NCBI GenBank assembly: GCA_027064525.1
Contig: JAMOPJ010000018.1
Location: 62,001 to 126,000, forward strand
DNA: 64,000 nucleotides
Direction of reading: 5' to 3'
From: Archaeoglobaceae archaeon
Lineage (GTDB): Archaea > Halobacteriota > Archaeoglobi > Archaeoglobales > Archaeoglobaceae
Positions within the stretch are counted from its first letter, which is position 1. Every line of letters starts with the position of its first letter. Below, one piece after another: positions 29,575 through 61,804 of the stretch. The notes under the pieces are model-generated. The model was not told where the DNA came from. It ran no database searches and worked only from the letters and a program-made list of their open reading frames with translations. A program made the position numbers and the translations under genes.

Positions 29575-31830
29575 CTACGTCTCTCTCTTTCTCTTGCCAA
29601 CGGTCGCGAGGTAAGCTAAGTATGCGTCGAGCTGAATCCTGTCGTGAGCTCCTTCCGTAAGTCTGAAGTCTATCTCACCGAGCCTGTCTATGAGCATGAC
29701 CTTCGTTTTCTCGTCTATCTTCGAGGCTATTATCTCTCTGAACAGCTGTGAAACTACATCCTCACCGCTCATTCCGTATTCGACCATCATCCTGTCAAGC
29801 ATCTGTCGAGCATCCATGAACTTACCCTCTAATGCAGTCTCAAGCAACTTCTTGATCTCCTCTGGGCGAGCGGTTGCCGTTATTTGGTATATAGCCTCGG
29901 CATCTATCACCTCACCAAAAGCAGCGGCACCTTGCAAAGCGTTTATTGCCTTTCTGAAGTCTCCGTTCGCTATGTAGATGAGAGCTTCGAGACCGTCTTC
30001 TGTAATCTTTATTCCCTCTTTCTCAGCGATCTCAAGCAACCTCTTTTTCATTGCCTCTGGCGGAACCGGCTTGAACTTGAAGACCGCACATCTCGATTGT
30101 ATGGGCTCGATGATCCTGCTCACGTAGTTGCAGCTTAGGATAAATCGGCAGGTTTTAGAATACATCTCCATAGTTCTTCTTAAAGCAGCTTGAGCGTCGG
30201 CAGTTAAAGCGTCTGCCTCATCCAAGAATATGATTTTGAACGGAGCACCACCAATCGGAGCAGTCCTCGCAAACTCCTTTATTTTATGTCTGACGACATC
30301 TATGCCTCGCTCATCTGAGTTGTGCAATAGAACTGGCGTTGTTCCACCGAAGAATACTTCGGCATTCGGCACGCTGAAGTCGTAAACCCAACCGTCGTAG
30401 CTGATCTTTTCGATCTCTTTGATCTCCACAGCATACAAGCTAGATTCGGCCAAAGCTTTGAGTCTCAAATAAGTCTTTCTTTCTTCCTCATCCAGCTCTT
30501 CAGTTCTAACAGCCTTCAGAATCTTTAGCAATGTAGCTTTTTTGACCCTTCTCTTTCCGTCATAGGGTTGATGTCTAAGTAGATACTTCCAATTTACGTC
30601 GATTTTTCCGTCTATACGCTTAAAGAATCTCTCAAATGGCTTAACTGGTAGCAACTCCGATCTTACGTATGAGAAGGAATTCCAGACAATTCTTACTTCC
30701 CTATCGAACATCGATGTCTCTAAACCGGAAATCCTGCCGAGCCAAGCGATGTCTGTTAGTATTTCTTTGGATACCGATGTGTATCTAACGTATTTGCCCC
30801 AAGTTCCACAGCCGTCGCCCATGTAGCCCATGAGGAACGAAAGTCTGTTTTGTAGGGTTGTGTTGAATATTATATCTGGAACTCTTTTTGATTTGGCTGT
30901 ATGCCCGCTGAAGATGTCTCTGAAGAACCTTGCGAGCTGAGTATTCAGAAGCTTGGCGTGGATAGCTGAAGCTTTACTTCTGTCGAAACCTGAATATGCT
31001 GGCTGGGTGTATGTTGAGATCCCAAAAGCATTACCAAAGTCCCTTATGCGATCAATAACCTCTTGATCTCTTGCCGATACCGTGAATATTACCTGCCCGG
31101 AGGTTCCATCTCTGAAGCTCAGACAGCCTTCTGCTAGGAACAAACCCATTATCCAAGATGTCTGCTCGTTGATTGGAAATTCTGTTAGCACGGTTCTCAG
31201 CTTTGGATTGTCATAGCTTTGGAGATATTCGAGCATATCTATTGATAGTTCCGAACCTTTCAAGCACTTCTTGAAGGACAGAAGGAAATCGCCCTTCTTG
31301 AGCTCGTCAGCTCTCTTTGAAACGATCTTACCTTCTTCATCGAGCACCATGATCGAGTGGTCGGACGTGGTCTTAACTTCACCACCCTCGAATTTTATTC
31401 TTACGATTCTGTCCGCTCTGTGCCTCGCTATGAACGAAACTGGATAGAATCCGACATCATCGTAGAAGCTCAACGTTTCCAAGCCTATCGGGATTACATA
31501 TTCTTCTTTTTCGTCTTTGAAGAATAGTCTGTCAATTTCCTCGAATGTCGTTCTCTTGATCACTCCATTTATTCTTATGAGTATCGGAGTGTCTGGAGTG
31601 ACGGAAGCGTTCATCTCTATAAAGTTATCTCGCCAATTCTCGCCAAATAGATCCCTTGCTAAGGCGATAGCGGTAGCAGTTTTACCAGTTCCCGGAGGAC
31701 CAGCAAATAGAAGGTGGGGGATGTTTTTCTTTTGAACGTAACTCTTGAGCCTCTTTATAACCTCATCCTGCCCAACGACTTCATCGAGCGTTTTTGGCCT
31801 GTATTTTTCAACCCAGATCTCAGCTTCCAT
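29575..31830 (-). CDS. rfcS: Replication factor C small subunit with intein
   Basis: RFC loads the PCNA sliding clamp. The host protein is 322 aa: residues 1-75 (Walker A GPPGTGKT at about 44-51) and 505-751 (Walker B IIFLDEADALT, sensor 1 and SRC arginine finger in EPIQSRCAVFKFKP). They are separated by a 429-aa intein at residues 76-504. Joining ...FIEMNA to SDERGID restores the expected RFC sequence. The gene is first in the leftward operon that continues to the exosome genes. A TATA-like TTTTTATA (complement of about 31850-31857) lies about 25 nt before the ATG, so the message is nearly leaderless. Confidence 0.95.
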   Translation of the reverse strand: MEAEIWVEKYRPKTLDEVVGQDEVIKRLKSYVQKKNIPHLLFAGPPGTGKTATAIALARDLFGENWRDNFIEMNASVTPDTPILIRINGVIKRTTFEEIDRLFFKDEKEEYVIPIGLETLSFYDDVGFYPVSFIARHRADRIVRIKFEGGEVKTTSDHSIMVLDEEGKIVSKRADELKKGDFLLSFKKCLKGSELSIDMLEYLQSYDNPKLRTVLTEFPINEQTSWIMGLFLAEGCLSFRDGTSGQVIFTVSARDQEVIDRIRDFGNAFGISTYTQPAYSGFDRSKASAIHAKLLNTQLARFFRDIFSGHTAKSKRVPDIIFNTTLQNRLSFLMGYMGDGCGTWGKYVRYTSVSKEILTDIAWLGRISGLETSMFDREVRIVWNSFSYVRSELLPVKPFERFFKRIDGKIDVNWKYLLRHQPYDGKRRVKKATLLKILKAVRTEELDEEERKTYLRLKALAESSLYAVEIKEIEKISYDGWVYDFSVPNAEVFFGGTTPVLLHNSDERGIDVVRHKIKEFARTAPIGGAPFKIIFLDEADALTADAQAALRRTMEMYSKTCRFILSCNYVSRIIEPIQSRCAVFKFKPVPPEAMKKRLLEIAEKEGIKITEDGLEALIYIANGDFRKAINALQGAAAFGEVIDAEAIYQITATARPEEIKKLLETALEGKFMDARQMLDRMMVEYGMSGEDVVSQLFREIIASKIDEKTKVMLIDRLGEIDFRLTEGAHDRIQLDAYLAYLATVGKRKRET
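30319..31605 (-). other. Intein in RfcS with LAGLIDADG homing endonuclease
   Basis: The insert is 429 residues, starting with Ser76 (SVTPDTPILI, block A) and ending VLLHN with the terminal Asn encoded at 30319-30321; Ser is also the +1 residue (SDERGID). Block B is about TSDHSIMVLDEEG and block F about VYDFSVPNAEVFFGG. Two dodecapeptide motifs of a DOD homing endonuclease, WIMGLFLAEGC and FLMGYMGDGC, are present with acidic residues, so it may still home. It splits the NA-SDERGI motif of RFC, a site also used in RFC inteins of other archaea such as Methanocaldococcus (from memory). Start with Ser instead of Cys is an allowed variant. Confidence 0.93.
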
Positions 31831-31871
31831 TGATGTAAAAATGGTTGGCGAAGTATAAAAATGTTGATGCG

Positions 31872-31890
31872 AAAAGGATATTTTTCCGTT
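31872..31890 (+). promoter_or_regulatory. TATA-like promoter of the H/ACA RNA
   Basis: GAAAAGGATATTTTT (about 31871-31885) has a BRE-like purine run before an A/T box, placed about 25 nt before the predicted RNA start at about 31904. It is divergent from the rfcS promoter only 15-20 bp away. Confidence 0.4.
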
Positions 31891-31903: not shown

Positions 31904-31968
31904 TATGCCCGTTAGAACCCGGCGGGGCTGAGAAGCATGATGCCCCGTGGGCTCCAGACGGGCTACAT
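31904..31968 (+). ncRNA. H/ACA-type guide RNA (pseudouridylation guide) with K-loop
   Basis: The sequence folds as a single archaeal H/ACA hairpin. The lower stem is GCCCGT (31907-31912) with ACGGGC (31958-31963). An internal guide pocket follows (5' side from 31913 TAGAACCC, 3' side to 31957 GGGCTCCAG). The upper stem is CGGGGC (31923-31928) with GCCCCG (31942-31947), capped by the K-loop TGAGAAGCATGAT whose UGA/GAU ends give U-U and tandem G-A pairs for L7Ae. The ACA box at 31965-31967 is 1 nt after the lower stem. This is the textbook layout for guiding pseudouridine in rRNA. The target is not determined. It overlaps the stop region of the convergent cation-efflux gene by about 6 bases. 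Confidence 0.78.
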
Positions 31969-32850
31969 TCTCATGATCTTTCTCATAACAGAATCGTAGG
32001 TTGTTTTGATCTCCTTACCTTTCTCGGCACAGACGTGAATTAGGACGTATGCAACTTCTGGGATCTCCTGTAAGATCTTCTTAGCGATCCTCGCAGTCAG
32101 CTCGTCCGCCTCCTTTACGGTCATCGATCCGTCCACAGTTATGTGCATATCTAAGTGGATTTTGTTTTCACCCATGTATATCGCGATGATGTCGTGGACA
32201 TCCTCAACCTCTTCAAATGACTCTACAATGGCCCTAACTCTCTCGTAGAAGCTCTCGTCAGGACTTCTTCCCAAAAGGTAGCTCGCGTTATTCTTGAAAA
32301 GTCTGTAGCCATTTAGACTTATTAGAATCGCTATGAAAATCGATGCCAATCCGTCGGCAATTGGATATCCAATGGTGCTTAAGTATATTCCGAAAATAGC
32401 CCCAAGAGATGATGTTATGTCGTTTATCAGCTCCGCAAACGCGGACTCCTCAGTTGAACTCCTTTCTCCTCGGTAAATCAGAGTTAGAAGGGTCGGTGGT
32501 ATTATCGTTGCAATTAGAACAGCTATGGCGAATGTCGGGTATTTACCGGCTGAGGGATGCAAAATCCTTTCGATTCCCTCCAAAAACAGTTCGAATGCTA
32601 CGACCGTTATAAATACCACAGCGACAACTACTCCACTCAGATTTTTCGCTAATCCATGGCCTAAGGGGTGGAGATGGTCTGCAGGTTTTGCGGATATCCT
32701 TTCCGAGTATAGGAGAGTCGTGAAAATGAGTATATCGACGACGTTGTGCAGAGCTTCGGCGAGCATAGCCAGATAACCCGTAATCACGTAACATACGAGC
32801 TTCGCGAGAACTATGGCTGTATATGTAGCTATAGTAACCTTCAGTTTCAT
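31963..32850 (-). CDS. Cation diffusion facilitator (CDF) family efflux transporter
   Basis: CDF proteins export Zn2+, Fe2+, Mn2+ or similar ions in exchange for protons. The 295-aa protein has about five or six membrane segments in residues 1-200. The metal-site residues lie in the helix ALHNVVDILIF (H-x-x-x-D) and later NDITSSLGAIFGIYLSTIGYPIADGLASI. The cytosolic C-terminal domain (SFEEVEDVHDIIAIYMGENKIHLDMHITVDGSMTV) is the usual metal-sensing part. HxxxD in place of DxxxD in the first site is common in Zn/Fe-type members, but the metal cannot be fixed from sequence alone. Confidence 0.9.
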   Translation of the reverse strand: MKLKVTIATYTAIVLAKLVCYVITGYLAMLAEALHNVVDILIFTTLLYSERISAKPADHLHPLGHGLAKNLSGVVVAVVFITVVAFELFLEGIERILHPSAGKYPTFAIAVLIATIIPPTLLTLIYRGERSSTEESAFAELINDITSSLGAIFGIYLSTIGYPIADGLASIFIAILISLNGYRLFKNNASYLLGRSPDESFYERVRAIVESFEEVEDVHDIIAIYMGENKIHLDMHITVDGSMTVKEADELTARIAKKILQEIPEVAYVLIHVCAEKGKEIKTTYDSVMRKIMRM

Positions 32851-61748: not shown

Positions 61749-61804
61749 GCCGATGATGATTGATGGGCGAACTGAAACTATGATGAAAGGGAGAGTTCTG
61801 AGGC
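61749..61804 (+). ncRNA. C/D box sRNA (2'-O-methylation guide)
   Basis: All four boxes fit exactly: C ATGATGA (61753-61759), guide TTGATGGGCGAA (61760-61771), D' CTGA (61772-61775), a 4-nt spacer, C' ATGATGA (61780-61786), guide AAGGGAGAGTT (61787-61797), D CTGA (61798-61801). GCC (61749-61751) and GGC (61802-61804) close the terminal stem. Spacing and lengths are those of archaeal C/D sRNAs bound by L7Ae-Nop5-fibrillarin. The D' guide can pair with UUCGCCCAU(U/C)AA, as in the archaeal 23S A-loop region (from memory), directing methylation of the C at the fifth paired position. The D-guide target is not known. It begins 2 nt after the DUF2298 stop. Confidence 0.92.

Follow-up and report, generated by a model that had tools for sequence, protein, structure and literature searches.

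A conserved single-hairpin H/ACA guide RNA family of the class Archaeoglobi with a predicted target in 16S rRNA

The window (the whole stretch of Archaeoglobaceae DNA analysed here, 64,000 nt) carries at 31907-31967 (+ strand) a predicted gene for an H/ACA guide sRNA, a single hairpin with an ACA box, recognized from its fold, the uniqueness of its descriptor, covariation and orthologs. The mature ends given are estimates accurate to about a few bases, and the gene is ~60 bases long. It is flanked by two genes of the minus strand. The convergent one, a cation-efflux gene (31963-32850, from the CDS call and the sequence), ends in a TAG stop at 31965-31963 that covers three bases of the RNA: the last one of its lower stem, the spacer U and the A that opens the ACA box. 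The divergent one (29575-31830, outside the RNA and given as context) encodes a replication factor C subunit, rfcS, as named from its sequence, and contains an intein-like insert. In a congener (genome G036, locus L098) rfcS lacks ~207 residues of the insert (187-393 of the window protein), as would result from loss of the homing-endonuclease part.

A BRE/TATA-like putative promoter, CGAAAAGGATATTTTTCC, is situated at 31870-31887 (+), ~20-37 nt upstream of the hairpin. It was located by an A+T peak in orthologous flanks: 19 upstream flanks aligned on the lower stem share this peak at −34 to −20, and most copies of genus g1 have there the element GCGAAAA.GATAT.TTTCC. An archaeal TATA box at this distance would set the transcription start a few bases ahead of the stem, and the RNA most likely owes its transcription to a promoter of its own.

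The hairpin has the archaeal single-hairpin H/ACA layout of lower stem, pocket, GA (upper) stem with K-loop and U-ACA end. The lower stem, of 6-7 pairs, is formed by GCCCGT (31907-31912) and its partner ACGGGC (31958-31963), both strands being supported by the fold and by covariation and the first also by sequence. The 5′ guide strand of the pocket, TAGAACCCG (31913-31921), delineated by ortholog alignment and target scoring, contains ACC(C)G, which is invariant among the orthologs. The 3′ guide strand, GGGCTCCAG (31949-31957), delineated by target scoring, contains GGCTCCA (31950-31956), the complement of UGGAGCC in 16S rRNA. Between the guides, GCGGGGC (31922-31928) and GCCCCGT (31942-31948) pair over seven positions as the GA stem, as judged by alignment and covariation, and are closed by the K-loop TGAGAAGCATGAT (31929-31941), a putative L7Ae site in which TGA and GAT form U-U, G-A and A-G pairs around the 7-nt loop GAAGCAT, in agreement with the class consensus (PMC7991803). 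The spacer T (31964) and the ACA box (31965-31967), both read from the sequence, complete the gene. Productive archaeal H/ACA guides have a 10-pair GA stem and a distance of 14-15 nt to the ACA box (PMC4652768). The tandem G-A pairs and 7-nt loop, set on the seven Watson-Crick/GU pairs, add three K-loop pairs and thus give a GA stem of 10 pairs, and 15 nt separate the first paired base of the 3′ guide (31950) from the base preceding the ACA box; nearly all copies follow the same rule.

The calculated fold energy of the RNA is −33 kcal/mol, compared with −21.3 ± 2.9 kcal/mol in shuffled sequences (z of −4.0; none of 200 shuffles equalled it). A descriptor of stem, K-loop, pocket, stem and ACA box had one match in the 64-kb window, the hairpin itself, and none in 20 block-shuffled copies. 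No match to the RNA was found among the covariance models of Rfam 15, neither at the gathering level nor at E 1. The sequence-only reading had placed here an unannotated stem-pocket-stem RNA with a K-loop and a correctly placed ACA box, whose 3′ end runs into the opposite-strand cation-efflux stop; the hairpin is indeed there, with the fold z-score of −4.0 and the sole descriptor match in the window, the TAG at 31965-31963 shares the first base of the ACA box, and ‘unannotated’ holds as regards Rfam 15. Genes for Cbf5 and Nop10, protein partners of H/ACA RNAs, are both present in the genome from which the window comes.

BLAST searches detected copies of the RNA in genera g1, g3, g4 and g8. A first covariance model, built from nine copies, added g5, g7, g9 and g12, bringing the genera of the family with orthologs to eight; beyond it, two more families of the class Archaeoglobi each have an ortholog in a single genome. 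A second covariance model, run with stricter filters against 394 genomes of the phylum, found no copy outside the class. No copy turned up in the A. fulgidus-like genus g2 or in g13, where the same models gave only an Afu-46-like RNA (see below) or weak chance matches. Three low-scoring matches (L144, L146 and L147) were discarded as family members, having on inspection no H/ACA layout. In relation to Rfam, the RNA is a new and well-conserved family.

Whole-RNA alignments made with MAFFT misplaced the lower stem because the pocket lengths differ, so they were set aside, and a gap-free alignment restricted to the stems served for counting covariation. Among 15 distinct copies, 99% of the cells in this alignment pair and 10 of the 13 pairs have changed on both sides; the covariation score was reached by none of 500 shuffles, and sliding the partner by one base lowered the pairing to ≤48%. 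Because the lower-stem register was chosen by hand, copy by copy, this half of the alignment leans toward pairing, while the columns of the GA stem are fixed by the K-loop; in this upper stem five pairs still show double changes. The conservation of the stems that the sequence-only reading had proposed as a check is thus seen in relatives from eight genera and two further families.

The position of the hairpin between converging and diverging genes is one that a terminator could occupy, and a GC-rich inverted repeat that resembles an H/ACA RNA by chance and is not an RNA gene at all could be imagined here. Such an explanation is hardly credible, given the compensatory changes and the conservation at unrelated genomic sites, the conservation of the unpaired K-loop and ACA box, and the lack of any other descriptor match in the window or in the shuffled copies; moreover, no T-run follows the hairpin. 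That 31907-31967 (+) is a genuine gene for an H/ACA guide RNA, of an ordinary kind, is nearly certain.

Across the class, the orthologs occupy mostly differing genomic sites. Genera g1 and g4 share both neighbours, rfcS and the cation-efflux gene, and keep the overlap of stop codon and ACA box; in the other genera neither gene lies within 1.5 kb of the RNA, so that its conservation does not depend on what surrounds it. The antisense overlap with the cation-efflux stop in g1 and g4, together with the non-ribosomal targets discussed for archaeal H/ACA RNAs (PMC4652768), might suggest an H/ACA-like hairpin that binds L7Ae and Cbf5 and acts mainly on tRNA or mRNA, or as an antisense RNA on the 3′ end of the cation-efflux transcript. 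We regard this as improbable, since in the genera where the cation-efflux gene and rfcS are not found within 1.5 kb the complementarity of the pocket to 16S rRNA is nonetheless kept.

To score targets, every uridine in the 16S and 23S rRNAs of family members was considered (920 sites), with energies averaged over eight genera. In the scoring rule an unpaired UN dinucleotide is flanked by pairing with the 3′ guide on its upstream side and with the 5′ guide on its downstream side; the distance to the ACA box is 13-16 nt, and each arm may contain no more than one irregularity. The best site was the 16S uridine that corresponds to E. coli U950 (GGAGCC-UG-CGGUUU; numbering obtained by mapping onto E. 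coli rrsB), with a mean of −20.7 kcal/mol; the runner-up had −16.6 kcal/mol, and the best sites in control rRNA sets reached −17.4 (12 shuffled sets), −14.2 (reversed) and −12.6 kcal/mol (antisense). Here the 3′ guide pairs, through a GG close to its start that hardly varies, with the two C upstream of UN, and the 5′ guide pairs through its terminal CCG with the CGG downstream of it. The distance to the ACA box is 14-15 nt in all scored orthologs except one (13 nt in genome G025). Of 28 fetched 16S loci, 26 contain the target 18-mer, GGAGCCUGCGGUUUAAUU, and the two exceptions (L090 and L091) come from partial 16S matches; the 18-mer is also identical in the 16S rRNA of the A. fulgidus-like genus g2, despite the RNA not having been found there.

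For the genome of the window, the rRNAs were read in congeners, since its own 16S gene is only partly assembled and its 23S was not found with the Rfam model. Taken alone, the guide of the window ranks the 16S-950 site second, and its 5′ guide needs a one-base bulge or a mismatch there (AACCCG vs CGGUUU); in the ortholog of genome G032 just three pairs are left on the 3′ guide side. Two further sites, 16S 75 and 16S 356, score highly for the guide of the window alone and fail in other genera; they were rejected. Both pocket strands named in the sequence-only reading turned out to be the right ones, and the match to rRNA yields a consistent target that obeys the UN rule at 14-15 nt. Taken as a whole, the reading as an H/ACA guide directed mainly to the U950-equivalent uridine of 16S rRNA is probably correct.

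The same guide could have its main target elsewhere, at U2580 of 23S rRNA (E. coli numbering), next to the peptidyl-transferase loop, in the context GUGAGC-UG-GGUUUAGA. This site is the best one for the ortholog of genome G030 and among the top few for most others, GCUCA of several lineages pairs with its UGAGC, and an archaeal pseudouridine at 2580 with no known enzyme has been described in Halobacterium (PMC2584109). Its mean energy, however, is −14.8 kcal/mol as against −20.7 for 16S-950, the conserved G beside the GA stem stays unpaired on both sides, the distance to the ACA box is 13-14 nt and the ortholog of G032 has no pairing with it at all; 23S U2580 is thus an unlikely main target. 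A role as second target is suggested by its rank, fourth overall and first in one genome (G030). That one hairpin guides both the 16S U950 equivalent and 23S U2580, with lineages drifting between the two, is a speculative idea to which we would give about one chance in several.

With the 16S site as main target, 31907-31967 (+) would act as a stand-alone gene for a single-hairpin box H/ACA sRNA. L7Ae would bind the K-loop, and Cbf5-Nop10-Gar1 would bind the ACA box and the lower stem. The pocket would pair with 5′-UGGAGCC-U-G-CGGUUU-3′ of 16S rRNA, the 3′ guide through GGCUCCA with UGGAGCC and the 5′ guide through AACC(C)G with CGGUUU, and Cbf5 would convert the E. coli U950 equivalent to pseudouridine; 23S U2580 may serve as a second target in some lineages. 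It is in this sense that we infer transcription, RNP assembly and modification by this RNA.

Afu-46, an H/ACA sRNA of Archaeoglobus fulgidus, guides Psi2639 of 23S rRNA (Tang et al. 2002, cited in PMC4652768). Its presumed orthologs, which score ~19-29 bits with covariance model R1, resemble the RNA of the window in the single hairpin, the K-loop core (GGUGAGAAGCAUGAUCC), the U-ACA end and the similar size; they differ in the pocket (CCCUCACG / CGGUU) and in the target, which we read as U2593 of 23S rRNA (E. coli numbering). Membership of the window RNA in the Afu-46 family was rejected on account of the different pocket and the occurrence of both RNAs within one genome: the same g4 genomes (L125 and L129) have both, so the two are separate families. 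The Afu-46-like H/ACA family itself (GCTCCGCC...CCTCACGCCCGGGTGAGAAGCATGATCCCGGGTCGGTTGGCGGAGCTACA; L113-L121, L124, L125 and L129) is widespread, scores low with the same models and fits 23S E. coli U2593; we infer that its members are Afu-46. The Pyrococcus abyssi sRNAs Pab21, Pab35, Pab40 and Pab105 (RF00065, RF00058, RF00064 and RF00060) are alike in the 10-pair GA stem, the pocket, the 14-15 nt to the ACA box and the K-turn or K-loop; what sets them apart from the RNA of the window is sequence (no match in Rfam).

A likeness of another kind is that to the eukaryotic H/ACA snoRNA for human 18S Psi1232, which concerns an equivalent predicted position and does not imply homology; unlike the RNA of the window, guides in eukaryotes lack a K-turn or K-loop and mostly consist of two hairpins. 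We take Psi1232 to be the counterpart of E. coli 16S 950, which presumes the established correspondence of human 1248 to E. coli 966. This human site was reported as 98% modified (PMC6182160) and confirmed later (PMC10164566), and its guide is only predicted in the former work.

Assigned and tested targets are known for few archaeal H/ACA guides. Here a class-wide conserved family absent from Rfam leads to the prediction of just one pseudouridine, at a position of the small subunit where human ribosomes are modified too; this is checkable at one rRNA site in cultured species. Modification of the 16S site, if confirmed, would point either to an old site shared with human 18S rRNA or to convergence. 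If the dual-target reading is true, the RNA would supply a guide for archaeal sites of the orphan Psi2580 type, and a human pseudouridine whose guide is only predicted would gain a counterpart in archaea.

Several other guide-like RNAs came up in the searches. A paralog in genus g7 (L122, G023:C1:884354-884411, and L123, G024:C28:1897-1954) has an altered 3′ guide, GGGCACAG, with its best predicted sites in 23S rRNA, which makes a guide duplication followed by retargeting possible. A further H/ACA-like hairpin, GCCCGCCAGCCATGCGTCCCCTGAGAAGCATGATGGGGATTCCACACGGCGGGCTACA, occurs in the window's own genome (L126, G000:C41:85301-85350), and within the window itself, at 61749-61803, there is a box C/D sRNA matching Rfam sR1 with 51 bits.
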